A stretch of DNA of 64,000 nucleotides from Pleurocapsales cyanobacterium LEGE 06147. Its GTDB lineage: Bacteria > Cyanobacteriota > Cyanobacteriia > Cyanobacteriales > Xenococcaceae. Positions 16,569-25,534 of the stretch are shown in pieces (within the stretch, counting starts at the first letter, position 1; each line of letters begins with the position of its first letter). A model generated the notes under the pieces. It was not told the DNA's origin. It saw nothing but the letters and a program-made list of their open reading frames with translations, and did no database searches. A program made the translations under genes and the position numbers. The stretch is from NCBI GenBank assembly GCA_015207585.1, contig JADEWQ010000003.1, positions 1 through 64,000 on the forward strand, in the 5' to 3' direction.

Positions 16569-18551
16569 TTACCAAAAATAACCTTCTTCAACCGTAGTTT
16601 GACGTTTGTTAGGGTCATATTTTAGTAAATATTCTCTGGCGATCGCTTCTTGCTTTCTTAACTGCTGCACTTGGGCTTTTCCTATTTCCGTATCGGTAGA
16701 AAGTAAAATAACTTGATGGGAAGCAGTAGGAAAATATCTTTCTACCAAATTGTTACGATGAGAAGAATCTAACCTTCCTAAAGGAGTATCGATCGCTACG
16801 GGTAAGTTTCTTCCCGACACTCTCGCCAGTCCCCAAAGAAAAGCGATCGCGAGTAACTGTTTTTCTCCAGCCGAAAGCCGTTGTTTGGGTAAAGGTTGAC
16901 CGTTTGGATCGTAAAGAGAGAGACGAAAATTCTCGCTATCGATGGCAACTCTATGCACTAAATTAGATTTGTGCAGGAGATAGCGAAAACACTCGGTTAC
17001 TTCTACTTCTAACTTATTCAATTTCTTGAGGGTCAATTTTTCTTTAAATAGCTGTAGTGTTTTTTGTACCTTAGCTACCGATTGAATAATATGTTCGTCG
17101 TTTGCGCGATCGAAGGCTTTTTCGCTATATTTTTCTAATTCTTTTTTGGCGCGATCGATCTCTTTGTCAATATCATCACACCTTTTTTGTTCCATGGCAT
17201 AAGCAGTTTGACAATTTAGTAATTCTTGTTGTGCTTTTTTGACAGCATCATCCAACTTTTGATAATCTTCTGGTGATGCTGCCCTTGCTAGTTGCGTTTC
17301 TAAAGTCTCAATTTCTACTTCTAATTTTTGTAATTGTTTGATAGATTCCCGAGCAGATTTAAACTGAAACGGTAAGAGATTATTCAATAAATTAGTTAGT
17401 TGCTTCAATCCTTCTTCTTCAATACTCAGCCATGGTGCTTCCCGATCCTCAATTTCCTCATTCAAATTTTTATTTTCTTCGTTAAGAAAAAATTTAGTTT
17501 TCTCTAATTGGTGAGAATTTAAAGATAATGTAACTAGATACTCTAGGAGTCGCTCATCTCTTTCTTTGATAATAGCTAGAGCTAGTTTAGCTTGTTGACT
17601 TTTTAATTCTTTCTCTCCCTGAACTATTGCTTGTTCAAGTAACGGAGAAATTAAAGCTAAAGGCAATACTCCAGTAGCTAGATTACGTAGTTCTTGACGT
17701 TTATTTTCTGCCGCTATAGTTAAATTTTTAATTTGTTCTTCCAATTGACTGCGCTTGGCAGCAATTCGTCCTCCTTCTGAGCGAAATTTATCATATGCCT
17801 GCTCGTATTTTGCTTGAGCTTTTTCTAATTCTTTTTGTAATTTAGCTAATTTTTCTTTAATCTGTTCTTTAGTTGCTTGTTGTTGTTTAATTTTGTGTTC
17901 AATTTCCTCTAAGCTAACTAATTGAGCTTTCTTGGCTAAAGCTTTTCTTTTGCGATTGACTAAAACATCTAAATCGATGGCTAATCTTTCAGCTAACTCT
18001 AAACCTAATAAAGATTGAATCGCTTCTATTACAGTTTGAGGTGGTGTTTCTAACTCAGCTAATTCTTTTACTTGTTCTCCATCAAATAAAAACAGATTAG
18101 ATATACCCAAAGGTAATAGATTTTCTATATATTCATCCCAAGTGTTAGCTAAAGCATCATCATAATAATCGCCTTCCATAATGCTTAAACTATCTTTGCC
18201 ATCCTGAGGATATCTCGTCCAAGCCCGAATAATTTTTAATTCTTTCCATTGGTCATTAACTATATGCTCAAAAGTTAATTCGATTTGAGTTATTTCACCG
18301 GGTAAAGTTTGTTGATTAACTGACTGAGATAAAAAATCGCTATAACTTAAATTGCCGCGAGTAGAACATTGCGCTCTTTGTCCGTATAACGTCAAGCGAA
18401 TTGCGTCCATTAAGGTGGTTTTTCCCCCACCATTCATGCCACCAAAGAGAATGATCGGACTAGCACTGCCATTATTTTCTGGTCGTAAATTAATGATATG
18501 GCGATCGGCATAAGCCCCAAAGTTTTGTAATACTAATTCTGTAAAAATCAT
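16569..18551 (-). CDS. dndD: DNA sulfur modification ATPase DndD
   Basis: DndD is an SMC/Rad50-like ATPase thought to help the DndC-E complex act on DNA when sulfur is placed in the backbone. The N-terminal Walker A is GGMNGGGKTT (37-46). There is a long coiled coil (~190-530), and the C-terminal signature LSAGEKQLLAIAF and Walker B VAIDTPLGRLDSSH complete the split ATPase head. FLFDGEQVKEL is the usual DndD family landmark, and 660 residues is the family length. It is separated from dndC by ~790 bp holding two opposite-strand small genes, so it may have its own promoter near 18552-18673. Confidence 0.88.
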   Translation of the reverse strand: MIFTELVLQNFGAYADRHIINLRPENNGSASPIILFGGMNGGGKTTLMDAIRLTLYGQRAQCSTRGNLSYSDFLSQSVNQQTLPGEITQIELTFEHIVNDQWKELKIIRAWTRYPQDGKDSLSIMEGDYYDDALANTWDEYIENLLPLGISNLFLFDGEQVKELAELETPPQTVIEAIQSLLGLELAERLAIDLDVLVNRKRKALAKKAQLVSLEEIEHKIKQQQATKEQIKEKLAKLQKELEKAQAKYEQAYDKFRSEGGRIAAKRSQLEEQIKNLTIAAENKRQELRNLATGVLPLALISPLLEQAIVQGEKELKSQQAKLALAIIKERDERLLEYLVTLSLNSHQLEKTKFFLNEENKNLNEEIEDREAPWLSIEEEGLKQLTNLLNNLLPFQFKSARESIKQLQKLEVEIETLETQLARAASPEDYQKLDDAVKKAQQELLNCQTAYAMEQKRCDDIDKEIDRAKKELEKYSEKAFDRANDEHIIQSVAKVQKTLQLFKEKLTLKKLNKLEVEVTECFRYLLHKSNLVHRVAIDSENFRLSLYDPNGQPLPKQRLSAGEKQLLAIAFLWGLARVSGRNLPVAIDTPLGRLDSSHRNNLVERYFPTASHQVILLSTDTEIGKAQVQQLRKQEAIAREYLLKYDPNKRQTTVEEGYFW

Positions 18552-18673
18552 TTTTTATTAATTAATTTACTCGAAAAGAAATTATCATAAAAATAATACT
18601 TTGTAAACTTAAGTTTCATCAAAATAAAATAAATTTGCTACTAACTATACATTAGTAGCTATATCTTTGATTT

Positions 18674-19019
18674 ATGGCAAAATTATCGGAAGAAAAAATT
18701 ATAAAAATTTTAAACTTACAGAGACAACTGTTAGAAAGAATTGATGAAGCAACTGGAACTGAGTTTAACTTATTTGAACAGTTTGGCGAGACGGAACAAA
18801 CTATTCCCGAATTAGATGAGCTTCAGAACATCAGACAAAGAGCCGATGCTTGCTACTCGCGTCTCTATGTAATTATAAAAAGAATTTATGAATCTCAACC
18901 TATAGCATAAGCGTGCTAATCTAGAATTACTAGAGCAAACCATAGAACAAGCTGAAGCAGTTTCAGAAGTAACCACAGCAAGTATCCGAGCAATCAAAAG
19001 AAATTGGGATCTACCATGA
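18674..19019 (+). pseudogene. Small helical protein gene split by a frameshift
   Basis: The first frame encodes 78 residues (MAKLSEEKIIKILNLQRQLL to YESQPIA) and stops at 18910. The next frame resumes at once and codes for NLELLEQTIEQAEAVSEV through IKRNWDLP to a stop at 19017-19019, which overlaps the ATG of the following gene in an ATGA arrangement. The tail has coding character and fits a single ~115-residue helical protein broken by a one-base indel between about 18906 and 18910. I do not know the family. It lies on the strand opposite to the dnd genes. Alternatives are a sequencing error or programmed frameshifting. Confidence 0.6.
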
Positions 19020-19225
19020 GTAACCACCCTAAAATCCCCGATGCAGAAACAAGAGCGCGTTCTGTTGCTAAGTTACGCGATTTGGTCAAACGTTGGGATG
19101 CTCTCATTTTAGATTTAGATGAATTAAACGCAAGGTTAGAAGCCGATATACGCAATAGTCCTCTAACAGCTTATCGTTTAGGGAAAGCAAAACGAGCGAG
19201 CGCTCAAGATAAAGAATTAAGTTGA
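19016..19225 (+). CDS. Small protein of 69 residues, unknown function, paired with the split gene
   Basis: I do not recognise this family. From the ATG at 19016 the product is 69 residues, hydrophilic and probably all-helical (ARSVAKLRDLVKRWDALILD), with no membrane segment. The ATG overlaps the end of the frame-restored upstream gene by 4 nt (ATGA), the arrangement of a coupled two-gene unit. The unit lies between dndC and dndD but on the other strand; a link with the defence genes is only positional. Confidence 0.55.
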   Translation: MSNHPKIPDAETRARSVAKLRDLVKRWDALILDLDELNARLEADIRNSPLTAYRLGKAKRASAQDKELS

Positions 19226-19336
19226 TAACATTAAAATTATCAGATTACATACATCTGAGTTAAATTTGCTCTCGTTGCCTAGTTTATTTAACTCGCTTAG
19301 GTAAGTTTTGTTCGTACAGACATAATTCTGATATCT

Positions 19337-20914
19337 TCAATCCTTTCCATTAGTTGGAAACTTTAAACTTGCCCAAGTTAACTCTTTAATTTTTTCTACA
19401 TTTCCTTCACCAGCAGCGGTTTTTAGATCTCGTTTTTTATGGGCATTTTCAATCGCTTCTTCCTGAGAACGAGAACTGGTTTCAAAGCATTTTTCCAAGC
19501 TATCATAAATACCCAAACGTCGCGATTTGGTATAATACTGCCGTTCTGTATCTAATAGTTTTGCCATTAATTCTAGGTGCATCCCATCGTCGTCACAGAT
19601 TTCTTCTAAGACATGCCATTCATCGCTACCTAATAATTTATTCTCTGCACCGATACGGACATCGTGAAAAGATTCGCCAGTCACTTCTTTATAAATACGG
19701 GGTAAACTATCATCAAACTCGTGTTTTTCTTCGAGCCAAATACGCCTAATTTCGCTTAATTCTTCAGGACTAATTAAGGTAATATCTTTAAATTCTTCGG
19801 GGGCATTTTGACGCACTTGCACTTGTGCTTCTAAAACTCGTTTTAACCAATGTTCTCGCCATTTTTTAGTATAAGGTCCTGGTATGGGATGAACAGATGT
19901 TTTTCCTTTCTCGTTGCGCTCAAAAAGTTGAACATTACCATGAATGCGGCGAAAATCTCTTCTATGATGATCTTTATGGACATCTAAATCATTACGTATA
20001 TTTAGTAAAGGTTGCATCCATTCTTTTTCTTCATCATTTTGAATCATTGCCTCCATAGATTTGTCCTGATTAACCATCGTGCAAACCCAGCAACCGAAAC
20101 GAGAATCGCCGCAACTAGGAGTAGATGTATCGACAACGAGAGGACATTCATTATCTGCCGTTGCACCTCGATACATAGCGAATAATTCTTTGTTACTCTT
20201 TTTCCATGGATTATTCCATTGCATTAAATAAAGCCAAACTTCATCATCTCGCCAATCTTGAATAGGACTGTAGATTAATGCACTAGGTAAAGTACTGCTA
20301 TAACGAAGAGAGTTATGAATATCTAAATTCGAGTTTAATCTGTCGCTAACTTTGCTCAATTCATATTTAGCCATGGTTGTGGCTCGATTTGCACTCTCAG
20401 CTTTACGAGTACCCAAAACAAGAATTACTTCCCCACTAACTCTAATTACGTTACGAATAAAGTGATTAGTTGGATAAATTTTTAGCCTTTCAGTACACCA
20501 ACGAAATCCATGACGGGGGGCTGGATATCCTTTACCAATTAAATTTACCCAAAAGGTGTCTTTTGTATCAGGATTAAGCAGATGAGGCTCTACAGGTATT
20601 TTCTGCTCTTGAGCCGCAATTCTCATCTTTTCTAAAGATTGTTTGACCCAAGATGACACAATAGGATTTTCTACAAATGTATCTGTTGTGATCACATAAA
20701 CAGTTTTAGTACGTTGTTCTAGAGGCAAAGCTGCAAGAGCATGCCAAACAAGCTGTAGTACAGTTGTAGAGTCTTTTCCACCCGAATAACCTACAATCCA
20801 AGGGATGGAATCCAAACAATAAAATTTTTGAATTTCTTCAGTTATATTTTTGATATCTTTTACTAATTCAGGAACAGTACGTGATAAAGATATAGAAGTT
20901 TGTTCTTGCGTCAT
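19337..20914 (-). CDS. dndC: DNA phosphorothioation sulfurtransferase DndC
   Basis: DndC is a PP-loop ATP pyrophosphatase/sulfurtransferase related to PAPS reductase. It activates DNA and passes sulfur into the phosphate backbone. The PP-loop is GYSGGKDSTT (42-51). Cysteines for an Fe-S cluster appear in FRWCTERLK and SCGDSRFGCWVC. The 525-residue length and the GTRKAESANRA segment are characteristic. It follows the 135-residue dnd-associated gene by 78 nt in a minus-strand series that starts with the helicase at 25534. The cysteine desulfurase DndA that loads it is not in the window and is probably supplied by a chromosomal IscS/SufS. Confidence 0.92.
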   Translation of the reverse strand: MTQEQTSISLSRTVPELVKDIKNITEEIQKFYCLDSIPWIVGYSGGKDSTTVLQLVWHALAALPLEQRTKTVYVITTDTFVENPIVSSWVKQSLEKMRIAAQEQKIPVEPHLLNPDTKDTFWVNLIGKGYPAPRHGFRWCTERLKIYPTNHFIRNVIRVSGEVILVLGTRKAESANRATTMAKYELSKVSDRLNSNLDIHNSLRYSSTLPSALIYSPIQDWRDDEVWLYLMQWNNPWKKSNKELFAMYRGATADNECPLVVDTSTPSCGDSRFGCWVCTMVNQDKSMEAMIQNDEEKEWMQPLLNIRNDLDVHKDHHRRDFRRIHGNVQLFERNEKGKTSVHPIPGPYTKKWREHWLKRVLEAQVQVRQNAPEEFKDITLISPEELSEIRRIWLEEKHEFDDSLPRIYKEVTGESFHDVRIGAENKLLGSDEWHVLEEICDDDGMHLELMAKLLDTERQYYTKSRRLGIYDSLEKCFETSSRSQEEAIENAHKKRDLKTAAGEGNVEKIKELTWASLKFPTNGKD

Positions 20915-20992
20915 TTTAAATTAATCATTTTATTAACACTAGCCATGTTTTAAAATAGGCAGAAAAATATATTTAATTGTCTAGTTAATTAG

Positions 20993-21400
20993 CTATTCAA
21001 AACTAATAATTTTACGAATGTCATCTTGTATTTGAGTACTAACTTTGCCTTCCCAGCGTTGCTTTAATGACATAAGTCCAGCTTCAGCATATCGAGTCAA
21101 TATTTCTAATACTTCTCGCTCATCTGTAGGTTGTGGCTGATTATTAAGCTTACATATAGCATATATTCCTGCTTCTAGTGCTAGACGAACTTTGTCATCT
21201 ACTACTTCCATAAACGCTATGTCTTGACGCTTACTCGAAAGAATAGAGCTAACATCCAAATTATTTTTTATAGCATAAGCAGCAGCAAACATGTAGCCAT
21301 CTATCATATGCTCAAATACACCATTATTTTTAAGTAATTTGAGATAGCCATTAGCCTCGACATTTGAACTTATTACTGCTCTTGGGTTTATACGCTTCAT
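20993..21400 (-). CDS. Dnd-system-associated small protein (dnd_assoc_4-like)
   Basis: This 135-residue soluble protein has the landmarks VFEHMIDGYMFAAAYAIKNN and GIYAICKLNN. They resemble the family catalogued as dnd system-associated protein 4 (TIGR04062), an assignment made from memory of the pattern. It is not DndE, which is a different fold of similar size. It overlaps the stop of the upstream SMC-like gene by 4 nt, so the two are made together, and dndC follows. Its biochemical role is unknown; partner or regulator of the coiled-coil ATPase is a reasonable guess. Confidence 0.6.
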   Translation of the reverse strand: MKRINPRAVISSNVEANGYLKLLKNNGVFEHMIDGYMFAAAYAIKNNLDVSSILSSKRQDIAFMEVVDDKVRLALEAGIYAICKLNNQPQPTDEREVLEILTRYAEAGLMSLKQRWEGKVSTQIQDDIRKIISFE

Positions 21401-23238
21401 TCCTCAACCTCAACAACAGAAGCATCTTCACTTCCTTCTAGTCGTTTAATACGATGAATTTGAGCGACATGAGGTCGTAAATCTTGCAGAAGATAATCAG
21501 GCAAATCCCTGTCTGTTGCTAAGACTAACACTTGGGAGGGAATTTGAGGAAGAGAATTAACGATATTTTTCTGATGAGTGGTATCCAGGTGACCGAATGG
21601 AGTATCCATCATCAAAGGTGCAGCCTTACCAGAAGCTAAGTTTAGACTAGCAATAAAAGCAAAAGCAAGGGCTTCTTTCTCTCCGGCACTGATATTCTCT
21701 GGACTAAGAATATCATCATTTACATTTTTAATACCTAAAGTATAGTCTTGCTTTACTTGTACTCCAATATATTCATCTGGCTTATTAGTAACTCGACGAT
21801 GAATTTCAGAGGTATATTGTTCAATTTTTTGCCGACAATTATCTATATACCAATCTATCAATTCATCAGCAGCTTGTTTAAGACCATCAGCCATTGTTAA
21901 TTGTTTATTTAGAGTAGCAGTTAATTGATCCTGACTAGCTAACTGTTCTCGTTGACGTTTGAGTTGGTTTTCTTGTTGCTGTAAACTTTCTATTTCTTTT
22001 TCTATACGTTGAATTCGAGTTTTTTGATTACGAATATTTTCTTTTAGTTTTCCTATTTTTTCCCAAATTTCTTTTGCTTCTTGTCGATCAAATCCTTCTG
22101 TTTCTTTTTGTTTGCGATTTATTACCTGCTGAACTTCTTCAATATCTTCTATAAGGCGGTCGCGCTGCAATAGTAATTTATCTAAATCAGGAGTCTGATA
22201 ACGAGATAGTTCTTTTAAATCAGTGTATATATCCTGTAGTTCTATTGCCTCTTTAGAAATTTGTTCTACTTGTTCTAAACTTTCTATTTGTTGCTGAATA
22301 TAAAGATAAGCATTGTTATCTAAACAGCGTCCACATACACAGATATTATTGTTTATTAACTCTTTTAATAAATTGACACTAACAGAAATTCTAGTCTTAC
22401 TTACTGTTTTGCTCTGTATGTCGTCAGCTACTTCTCTAACTAACTCTGACAGCATATAAATAGGGGCTTCTGTTAAAACTTGCTTTATTTCTGTGTCTAA
22501 ACTCTTAAATTGGTTTTCCCAGTCAGTTTTTTTTCTTTGTTCTACTTCAATTTCTTTTAGTTTATTGTTTAAATCCTCAATTTGAGTTGCTCGTAACTCT
22601 GTATCTTCAAGAAACTTTTTCTCTTGTTGTAATTCTTCTCTGAATTTTTGTAATTGTCCCTTTTTGGTATAAATCTCTTGTTTGAGAGTCGTTAATTCTG
22701 CTGTTACTGCTTGTAATTCTTTTTTATTTTTCGCTGCGTCCTTAATTTTTTTCTCAAACTTTTTTAATGTTCCCTCAGCATCATCTCGCAAGTTTCTAAT
22801 TTCTGGAACGCCAAGGGTTCTCTCAATTGCCTTACGAGTTTCATCTGTATGAGTTAATTTTGCGTACTCTTCTATCTTTTTTCCATCAAAAAAGAAAAAC
22901 TCTCGACAAGCACGAGGTATAATCGATTCTATTCGTTCTTGGACATCTGGTTGGGATATTCCATCTTGCTCAAAAGTAGCGGTTAGTCTAACTGATAATT
23001 CTAATTCAGGATTACATTTTAGATTGACTCGATTAAAGTATTCAGCTATTTTCTCAAGAGGAACTGCATCACTTCCATATAAACACCACAAAATACCTTC
23101 TTGTATAGAAGTTTTCCCTGCCCCGTTCTGACCGTAAAAGACAAAAATATTTTTATCTGTATTTAGGTTTAATTCTATTTCTTGAGCTAAATAACATTTC
23201 CAATTTTGGAAATAAATTTTTTGCAAATATATTGTCAT
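21397..23238 (-). CDS. Second SMC/Rad50-like ATPase of the Dnd island, with CxCxxC insert
   Basis: A DndD-like but distinct ATPase of 613 residues. Walker A is FYGQNGAGKTS (34-44). There is a coiled coil to about 290, then a NNNICVCGRCLDNN segment, then a returning coiled coil. The head is completed by the signature ISAGEKEALAFAF and Walker B LMMDTPFGHLDTTH. The CVCGRC at the midpoint of the coil looks like a metal-binding hook of the Rad50 zinc-hook kind, which pairs two molecules, though it is longer than the classical CxxC. The FFFDGKKIEEYAK landmark is shared with DndD. It overlaps the dnd_assoc_4-like gene by 4 nt and follows the 52-residue gene by 16 nt. Confidence 0.8.
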   Translation of the reverse strand: MTIYLQKIYFQNWKCYLAQEIELNLNTDKNIFVFYGQNGAGKTSIQEGILWCLYGSDAVPLEKIAEYFNRVNLKCNPELELSVRLTATFEQDGISQPDVQERIESIIPRACREFFFFDGKKIEEYAKLTHTDETRKAIERTLGVPEIRNLRDDAEGTLKKFEKKIKDAAKNKKELQAVTAELTTLKQEIYTKKGQLQKFREELQQEKKFLEDTELRATQIEDLNNKLKEIEVEQRKKTDWENQFKSLDTEIKQVLTEAPIYMLSELVREVADDIQSKTVSKTRISVSVNLLKELINNNICVCGRCLDNNAYLYIQQQIESLEQVEQISKEAIELQDIYTDLKELSRYQTPDLDKLLLQRDRLIEDIEEVQQVINRKQKETEGFDRQEAKEIWEKIGKLKENIRNQKTRIQRIEKEIESLQQQENQLKRQREQLASQDQLTATLNKQLTMADGLKQAADELIDWYIDNCRQKIEQYTSEIHRRVTNKPDEYIGVQVKQDYTLGIKNVNDDILSPENISAGEKEALAFAFIASLNLASGKAAPLMMDTPFGHLDTTHQKNIVNSLPQIPSQVLVLATDRDLPDYLLQDLRPHVAQIHRIKRLEGSEDASVVEVEE

Positions 23239-23254
23239 TTATTATCGAAATATA

Positions 23255-23413
23255 TTAATTAGAATATTTAATAATTATTTCTTCTAGTTTAGTCATTAAT
23301 CTTCGGCGGTCGTCTTTATAAACGAGCTTATTCTTTTCCATTTGTATCGCTTCTTTCAATAAATCCACAGGAATTGCATATTTATCTGCTAGTTCTTGTA
23401 ATTTTTTCTCCAT
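23255..23413 (-). CDS. 52-residue DNA-modification-system-associated small protein
   Basis: The frame encodes 52 residues starting MEKKLQELADKYAIPVDLLK and ending LMTKLEEIIIKYSN. Two helices joined by an AIPVDLL turn are likely, with a basic middle (KDDRRR). I recall a family of short proteins of this type annotated as DNA modification system-associated; the match is from memory. Placement between the helicase (21 nt upstream) and the SMC-like ATPase (16 nt downstream) and clean coding character support a real gene. It may be a small adaptor. Confidence 0.62.
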   Translation of the reverse strand: MEKKLQELADKYAIPVDLLKEAIQMEKNKLVYKDDRRRLMTKLEEIIIKYSN

Positions 23414-23434
23414 TAGTTATCAAGCCAAATTTAA

Positions 23435-25534
23435 CTAAAGTAAATCTGAATAAGTAATCCCGTAATAAGATAATTCTTCTACTAGCTTAGTAATCACAAA
23501 AGTTCGATTACTAGCAGTACGAGCAAAATGAACCACTCTGCTAACCTCCGATGTAATCAATTTTACATGTTCGTCCCCTAAAGGTGGAACTACTAACACA
23601 TCAATTAGTTTCGCGATCGCTTTATTAGGTGCAGCCCTTAAAATTCTGCCCCGCCGTTGAATAAATTGCCGTTGTGAAGTATCGCTGGCTAAAATAATTG
23701 CCTGACTGGTTTCTGGTACATCTACCCCTTCATCCAAACATTTGACCGCAACTAACGCATCCAAATGACCGCGAGAAAATTGAGAGAGAATTTTTTGGCG
23801 TTCTTTGTCTTGAGAAGAATAACGGGCGACTCTTATTCCTTTTTGTGCTAATTTCCGACATACTGTAGTAGCTTGGTCGAGATCGGCACAGTAAATCATT
23901 GCTTTTTGAAGTGGATGGTCATCAAGAATGCGATCGAGAATAGTTAATTTACTACTGGCAGATTTAATAATTTTCGCCCTTTGAATTAAAAGATGTTTAG
24001 CTTTTGCTTGCGCCCTTTCAGCTTCACTATTAAGCAAACGATTGATTTTACTGGTTAGTGCTTTAAAAGTTTCATGTTCCGAGTCATCTAACGAAGTAAC
24101 ATAAACTTGATATTCATACTCGCAAAGAATACCAGCCGCGATCGCCTGTTCTAAACTAAATTCGTAAACGATATCGCCAAAATAATCTAAAACAACCTCA
24201 GTTCCTTCTTCGTCATGAGGACGAATAGGCGTAGCAGATAAACCTAATCGATAAGTAAAATCATCTCTAAGTATGCGTCGAAAAGATCCAGCCCCTGTTG
24301 CATGAACTTCATCAGCAATAAGTAAAGATTGTTCGGGTAAACCGCCAGCATCGACAATAAGATCGGCGATATGAGATTTAGATAATTCGCTATAGCTACC
24401 CACAACAATAACTGGTAGTCGTTCGCGAGATAATTGTTGGTTATTAATTAAACGTAGTTTTCTAAATAGTCTCGATCGCCATATTTCTGATTTTCCAGTA
24501 GCAACTAAAGGATACTGAAAAGTAGTTCGTCCTTCTAGTTCGTTAACCCATTGCTGAACTAATTCTTTAGTAGGTACGCTAATAACAATCAGATCTAAAT
24601 CGTCAAAACTAGCCGCACAAGCTAACGCCGTAATAGTTTTACCAGCCCCAGTAGCCATAGCTAAAATTCCTTTATAATTGGCTGTTGTAAAAGCTTCTAG
24701 GGCATTAACTTGGAGAGGTCTTAATTCTACTTTGAGCCAATTTTTGTATTTTAGCGTTGTTGTCAGAGAAGATTGTTGACCTACGTTGTAATTACTTTTT
24801 TCTTCCTTGACTGACCAATATTTTTTCTTTAGTTTATATTCTGGTTCTGTACTAGGAGGTTTATCTGGTTTCAGTCTAAGAAGCGATCGCGCTGCTGCTT
24901 CTGGAAACCCCATCACCTCAACTTTAGATGTCTGGTTATTCCATAATCTCTCAAAATTCTCGGTTTTTCGCAATGCCCTTTTCTGTTCTTCTGTTTTCCA
25001 AGAACAAAAGACATCAATACATTCAAAATTATCAATTAATGCCGATGAACTCTCATTCGCCGAACCAGTAAAAGTTACTTTATTAGCTTCTCGGTCGATA
25101 AAAATTCCCAACTTTTCATGATAAATACCTTGTTTGTGAATGTTTTTAGGTACTGCTAACTTAATCTCCAATATTTTCTGACTTAGTAACCAAGCCAAAC
25201 AAGCTAGTCTATCTTTGGCAACTTCCTCAAATTCTCGGTCTAATTCTTGCAAAATAACTTCAGTAATAACTTCTTCTCTCTGTTTCAATCCTGTGGCGAT
25301 CGCCTCTATATCTTCCGACGATAAACAAGGAGAAGCAACCAATCTCATTGTTCCACCAGCCCTAATCAAAGCAGTAAGTCCCTTAGAAACAGCTATCATC
25401 GAAGTACTAGAAAAGAAACCTACTGCCCGACTATATACGGTTGCTTGTTCCAAACAAGGAATATAAAAATCCTCAATTAAATCACAGCGATCGCTTCGGT
25501 ATTCATCCCTAATTGCCAATTCTTGTAAACTCAA
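23435..25534 (-). CDS. PLD-nuclease/SF2 helicase, probable restriction enzyme of the Dnd system
   Basis: The 699-residue protein fuses an N-terminal phospholipase-D-type nuclease domain with a superfamily 2 helicase. The PLD motif is YHEKLGIFID followed by FTGSANESSSAL (HxK...GSxN, ~135-165). The helicase has Walker A ATGAGKT (~293-299), the DEVH box (LLIADEVHATG), motif III LSATPIRP and motif VI FIQRRGRILRA. This architecture matches what I recall as the DNA phosphorothioation system restriction enzyme family (TIGR04095). It is the first gene of the minus-strand dnd series. It should attack DNA lacking the sulfur mark; that is inference from the family. Confidence 0.82.
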   Translation of the reverse strand: MSLQELAIRDEYRSDRCDLIEDFYIPCLEQATVYSRAVGFFSSTSMIAVSKGLTALIRAGGTMRLVASPCLSSEDIEAIATGLKQREEVITEVILQELDREFEEVAKDRLACLAWLLSQKILEIKLAVPKNIHKQGIYHEKLGIFIDREANKVTFTGSANESSSALIDNFECIDVFCSWKTEEQKRALRKTENFERLWNNQTSKVEVMGFPEAAARSLLRLKPDKPPSTEPEYKLKKKYWSVKEEKSNYNVGQQSSLTTTLKYKNWLKVELRPLQVNALEAFTTANYKGILAMATGAGKTITALACAASFDDLDLIVISVPTKELVQQWVNELEGRTTFQYPLVATGKSEIWRSRLFRKLRLINNQQLSRERLPVIVVGSYSELSKSHIADLIVDAGGLPEQSLLIADEVHATGAGSFRRILRDDFTYRLGLSATPIRPHDEEGTEVVLDYFGDIVYEFSLEQAIAAGILCEYEYQVYVTSLDDSEHETFKALTSKINRLLNSEAERAQAKAKHLLIQRAKIIKSASSKLTILDRILDDHPLQKAMIYCADLDQATTVCRKLAQKGIRVARYSSQDKERQKILSQFSRGHLDALVAVKCLDEGVDVPETSQAIILASDTSQRQFIQRRGRILRAAPNKAIAKLIDVLVVPPLGDEHVKLITSEVSRVVHFARTASNRTFVITKLVEELSYYGITYSDLL

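Follow-up and report, generated by a model that had tools for sequence, protein, structure and literature searches.

A probable DndCD(E)-PbeABCD phosphorothioation-based defence island, with dndE encoded in trans, in a Pleurocapsales cyanobacterium

What kind of system is encoded where dndC and dndD stand together without the other genes expected of a DNA phosphorothioation operon? A 64-kb stretch of contig JADEWQ010000003.1 from Pleurocapsales cyanobacterium LEGE 06147 (genome G000), hereafter the window, whose positions are used throughout, carries both genes at 16569-25534, together with a helicase, two small proteins and a second, hooked ATPase. An earlier note on this DNA took the locus for a non-canonical Dnd island lacking dndA, dndB and dndE. 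We conclude that the island very probably belongs to the DndCD(E)-PbeABCD type of phosphorothioation-based defence, recognised here from its genes, because curated models identify the genes, their order recurs in other genomes, PbeD has a predicted DndE fold, and the genome encodes both DndE and an IscS-type cysteine desulfurase. The gene set is thus one already recognised, and it is the host that is new; the unusual features are the unlinked dndE, a second Pbe-like module in the genome and a shortened PbeC.

A 2019 study described the PbeABCD, or CxC, system (PMC6459918), and a re-annotation of 2024 by Rakesh, Aravind and Krishnan assigns PbeA as an HKD nuclease joined to an SF2 helicase, PbeB as a small protein, PbeC as a CxC ATPase and PbeD as a DndE cognate (PMC10853773). 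In Haloterrigena jeotgali, DndCDEA-dependent virus resistance needs pbeB, pbeC and pbeD, with pbeA partly needed (PMC6459918). The hooked ATPase of the window, which had been read as a new Rad50-like addition tied to the PLD-helicase, is the PbeC of this known system.

Identity of the island genes

Six open reading frames (ORFs), every one intact and on the minus strand, occupy 16569-25534 and are transcribed in the order pbeA, pbeB, pbeC, pbeD, dndC, dndD. The gene series given in the earlier note therefore stands, with family assignments far beyond chance (PADLOC E-values of 4e-224 for PbeA, 4e-243 for PbeC and 2e-199 for DndC). Spacing from pbeA to dndC is operon-like, at 21 nucleotides, 16 nucleotides, a 4-nucleotide overlap and 78 nucleotides, and is followed by 785 nucleotides before dndD. 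A promoter and terminator scan of the island gave no more sites than did shuffled sequence.

The product of pbeA (23435-25534, TTG start, 699 residues) joins a PLD/HKD nuclease to an SF2 helicase of the XPB/type I-III R-like kind, the fusion that characterises PbeA in PbeABCD. It scores 744 bits with the PADLOC PbeA model and matches Pfam ResIII and Helicase_C; the Pfam PLDc_2 match, at 25.1 bits, is slightly below the 27-bit cut-off, and that to TIGR04095 (362 bits) covers the helicase part only. The motifs HxK..D (residue 139), GSxN (157), Walker A (295), DEVH (408), SATP (433) and QRRGR (626) are all present, with key residues invariant across six orthologues. Cleavage by PbeA is disputed, none having been observed in one study (PMC6459918) and the HKD domain being cited in its favour in another (PMC10853773); the intact HKD residues seen here would fit the cleavage view without settling the dispute.

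PbeB (23255-23413, 52 residues) matches no family and is identified by its position and its syntenic orthologues. These are small, fast-evolving proteins of 51-70 residues, found in the same place between pbeA and pbeC and 42-58% identical (13 aligned relatives); the counterpart in locus L141 is 71% identical. PbeC (21397-23238, 613 residues) is an ABC ATPase of the DndD/Rad50-like kind that scores 807 bits with the PADLOC PbeC model and whose profile matches Rad50 structures. The mid-coil hook CVCGRC, correctly picked out before, is formed by residues 300-305, and C300, C302, G303 and C305 are invariant in the orthologue alignment. PbeC thus has the DndD-like ATPase and mid-coil CxC hook of its family, notwithstanding a gap in lobe I that is considered below.

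DndC (19337-20914, 525 residues) is a PP-loop sulfurtransferase, matching TIGR03183 at 702.6 bits (cut-off 290.4), with SGGKDS at residue 44 and CX10CX6CX2C at 257-278. For the 660-residue protein encoded at 16569-18551, the top-scoring PADLOC model is labelled PbeC and the runner-up DndD. We identify it as DndD, the ABC ATPase of the phosphorothioation complex, because it passes the NCBIfam equivalog TIGR03185 (681.5 bits, cut-off 245.85) and has no hook cysteines; its Walker A motif is at 38 and LSAGEK at 559.

Predicted structure of PbeD

The profile-profile signal between PbeD (20993-21400, 135 residues) and DndE was too weak to be used, and structures were therefore compared. An AlphaFold2 model based on 14 orthologues has a mean predicted local distance difference test score of 93.2 and consists of two strand-helix-helix units followed by a C-terminal helix, the layout given for DndE (PMC10853773). 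The three solved structures that match it best are all DndE (7x4e, Z 11.8; 4lrv, Z 11.1; 5wtu, Z 10.6), and superposition on 7x4e takes in 113 of 114 residues at 2.7 Å. Where they align, PbeD and the solved DndE proteins are 12-13% identical. Next come chains of the F-plasmid relaxosome (Z 7-8), probably TraY, a protein that has itself been likened to DndE (PMC10853773). Foldseek also ranks DndE top, at a non-significant E-value; the PbeD profile found no match among PDB sequences up to E=10, and the score with dnd_assoc_4 (TIGR04062) is weak, 21.3 bits against a cut-off of 74.

Predicted fold and synteny together make PbeD a putative DndE-fold protein, its predicted E-H-H/E-H-H/H topology providing the two ribbon-helix-helix units and C-terminal helix of the DndE cognate in PbeABCD. 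It is the cognate of the second ATPase, PbeC, rather than a substitute for canonical DndE. The proposal that the 135-residue, dnd_assoc_4-like protein and the 52-residue protein replace the absent Dnd components was thus right to the extent that the former has a predicted DndE fold, but the two are PbeD and PbeB.

DndE and other Dnd components of the genome

An intact dndE is present on another contig (C3:29309-29638, locus L001), unlinked to dndD. It scores 150 bits against a cut-off of 25, and its profile matches the solved DndE 7x4e at 4.5e-31. The claim that DndE is absent is therefore rejected; it holds for the window, with the qualification that PbeD too has the predicted fold, and not for the genome. 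This dndE is flanked by an S41-type peptidase-like ORF, assigned by reading its sequence, and by an unrelated ORF. The suggestion that dndE and dndB lie elsewhere was accordingly half right: DndB (PF14072) has no match genome-wide, whereas two control genomes did match. DndB is a regulator found in about half of Dnd systems, and modification does not require it. No dedicated DndA exceeds its cut-off in the genome (best 442 bits against 480), as the earlier note had it for the island, but there are several cysteine desulfurases, the best an IscS-like protein on contig C10 (545 bits, slightly below the NF010611 cut-off of 548), and a Dnd system can draw on either DndA or an IscS-type enzyme. DndH (TIGR03238), a component of the DndFGH restriction system, has no match in the genome, but the control genomes gave no match either.

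The separation of dndE from dndD is not confined to this genome. Among 196 species of the order Cyanobacteriales, DndE was found in 168, and DndC and DndD, both over cut-off, in 157 and 163. DndE and DndD occur together in 161 species and are both missing from 26, with DndE alone in seven and DndD alone in two, giving 187 concordant and 9 discordant species (Fisher p 9e-24, uncorrected for ancestry). As we read the tables, complete genomes that have neither gene and genomes that have both occur side by side within at least nine families, implying that joint loss has been repeated. The distance between dndD and dndE could be placed in 132 genomes; it is within 6 kb in 70 and more than 50 kb, on the same contig, in 15. 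The genes dndC, dndD and dndE are thus retained together across the order even when distant, and for this reason the published statement that the DndD-DndE dyad is always linked (PMC10853773) fails as a rule here, dndE being unlinked in this genome and in many Cyanobacteriales. A Dnd gene 'missing' locally from a window can therefore mislead.

Distribution of the Pbe genes

The order pbeA-pbeB-pbeC-pbeD-dndC(-dndD) is repeated in genomes G103, G136, G150 and G028. Several named cyanobacteria, Hydrococcus, Waterburya and Spirulina among them, also share the gene order of the island. In a scan of named genomes the nearest PbeA, at 66%, is that of Hydrococcus and related cyanobacteria. Loci of the window type repeat pbeA-pbeB-pbeC-pbeD, often with dndC, and have no DndE in the flanks examined; many non-cyanobacterial Pbe loci carry dndC-dndD-dndE alongside. 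At the threshold applied, 186 of the 196 species have PbeA-like helicases, most of them a form of ~500 residues that matches the helicase part of the profile only; full-length window-type PbeA (>700 bits) occurs in just 7. On a tree, the pbe-linked DndC proteins are placed among other cyanobacterial DndC rather than in one clade. The pbe-linked DndC proteins require at least four changes on this tree, and a single DndC clade travelling with pbe is rejected; pbe and dndC have therefore joined or parted more than once.

The second Pbe-like module of the genome comprises a TIGR04095 helicase without a PLD domain and a CxC ATPase (C105:4387-8425, locus L134), with a genuine dnd_assoc_4 gene standing alone on another contig (C8:37524-37976, locus L146). 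The helicase scores 656 bits with TIGR04095 (cut-off 600), the ATPase 954 bits with PADLOC PbeC and the dnd_assoc_4 protein 203 bits. In genome G169 (locus L147) a compact cluster unites such a helicase and ATPase with dnd_assoc_4, dndC, dndD and dndE, parts that are dispersed in G000 over C105 (helicase and ATPase), C8 (dnd_assoc_4), C3 (dndE) and the window (dndC and dndD). Like Dnd itself, this second kind of module is widespread in the order. Both kinds lie in tandem in one stretch in loci L149 and L166, the helicase-only type followed by the PLD-bearing type. Also on C105, at 2004-2951 (L134), is a truncated BchE-like radical SAM gene close to an IS1182 transposase fragment.

Discussion

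The island resembles the DndCDEA-PbeABCD system of H. jeotgali (PMC6459918) in that pbeA, pbeB, pbeC and pbeD adjoin dndC and dndD, and in the small sizes of PbeB (66 residues there, 52 here) and PbeD (152 and 135); it differs in having dndE on another contig, no local dndA, a 785-nucleotide insertion between dndC and dndD, and a gap in lobe I of PbeC. With the CxC ABC ATPase-anchored systems (PMC10853773) it shares the HKD-SF2 helicase, the small protein, the CxC-hook ATPase and the cognate clade-2 DndE, as well as the tandem placement with a canonical DndD system. Varied and incomplete Dnd layouts have been reported in cyanobacteria before (PMC8569181). As far as the available parts of that report and of one on Microcoleus (PMC8546630) go, Dnd is widespread in Cyanobacteriales, as here, with disordered operons and DndFGH unreported, but no link is drawn there between the scattered genes and either PbeABCD or a second Pbe-like module within one genome.

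Published work suggests how the parts observed here (the identity, order and motifs of the genes, the predicted PbeD fold, the DndE in trans and the joint retention of DndD and DndE) might act, and we infer the biochemistry and antiviral action of the island from it. A housekeeping IscS-type cysteine desulfurase would supply sulfur to DndC, and DndC, DndD and the trans-encoded DndE would form one complex that exchanges a non-bridging oxygen of the host DNA for sulfur within a sequence motif. The sensing and effector half would be PbeABCD: a hooked PbeC dimer and the putative DNA-binding PbeD would scan DNA, the small PbeB may be obligatory as a regulator or linker, and PbeA, as nuclease and translocase, would act on unmarked DNA and so halt phage replication.

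Several observations weigh against this assignment. The alignment of the PbeD and DndE profiles is collinear but weak (probability 2.6%), and dndC is separated from dndD by 785 nucleotides that hold opposite-strand ORFs. PbeC, moreover, has 613 residues compared with 641-677 in the aligned orthologues, with an in-frame gap of ~29 residues in ATPase lobe I, between SVRLT and ATFE, near window position 22975. The missing stretch is kept in all 13 of the 13 aligned orthologues and includes one invariant or near-invariant arginine. Because these head residues are gone and model confidence falls just past the gap (to 60-72 at residues ~91-130), the window copy may be either defective, through a genuine lesion, or mis-assembled. 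Could the deletion have inactivated PbeABCD, leaving only the C105 module and the C8 dnd_assoc_4 to read the DndCDE mark? The gap is unique among the aligned orthologues and the second module is intact by model scores; however, PbeC retains its reading frame together with the Walker A and Walker B motifs, the hook and the signature, the remaining island genes are intact and the gap could be an assembly artefact, and we regard a broken restriction half as unlikely, though a serious alternative.

Less probable still is a non-defence role of the Dnd genes, in redox or gene regulation, with the Pbe island as a passenger. Such a role has been proposed for solitary cyanobacterial Dnd (PMC8569181) and would suit both the near-universal presence of Dnd among the 196 species of the order (157-168 of them), where window-type PbeA is rare, and the DndC neighbours of pbe not being one clade; against this, pbeABCD is found repeatedly beside dndC in different genomes, and the second Pbe-like module is widespread as well. 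That PbeD instead replaces DndE for DndC and DndD, making the island self-contained and leaving the C3 dndE to serve something else, we consider very improbable. PbeD has the predicted fold and sits directly upstream of dndC, and canonical dndE is missing from the examined flanks of window-type islands, but DndE and DndD agree in presence or absence in 187 of 196 species although only 7 have window-type PbeA, the identity of PbeD to solved DndE is low, as given above, and each clade of the ABC ATPases is paired with a DndE clade of its own (PMC10853773).

Within the DndCD(E)-PbeABCD assignment, we put forward more tentatively, as a possibility we hold at somewhat less than even, that a single phosphorothioate mark, made by a DndCDE complex encoded at scattered sites, is read within one cell by two Pbe-type effectors, one being PbeABCD, compact and PLD-bearing, and the other a helicase-only module that is older and dispersed, each ATPase having its own DndE-fold partner. 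If this is true, the combination of a single writer with two readers would offer a clean setting for the recognition of unmarked DNA and for the contribution of the PLD domain.

Finally, the interval between dndC and dndD contains two small plus-strand ORFs, at 18674-18910 (78 residues) and 19016-19222 (in a 69-residue reading). The former has no match in Pfam, PADLOC or NCBIfam, and the latter, read as 69 or 73 residues, has none in Pfam; lying on the opposite strand, neither is a hidden dndE. Within the family, 11 further genomes contain scattered homologues of the 69-residue ORF (41-49% identical), and the content of the gap is for that reason probably an unrelated insertion. Genome G103 has a different ORF of 326 residues between dndC and dndD (L139:10603-11583), without a match in Pfam or PADLOC, so that this gap seems to accept insertions.

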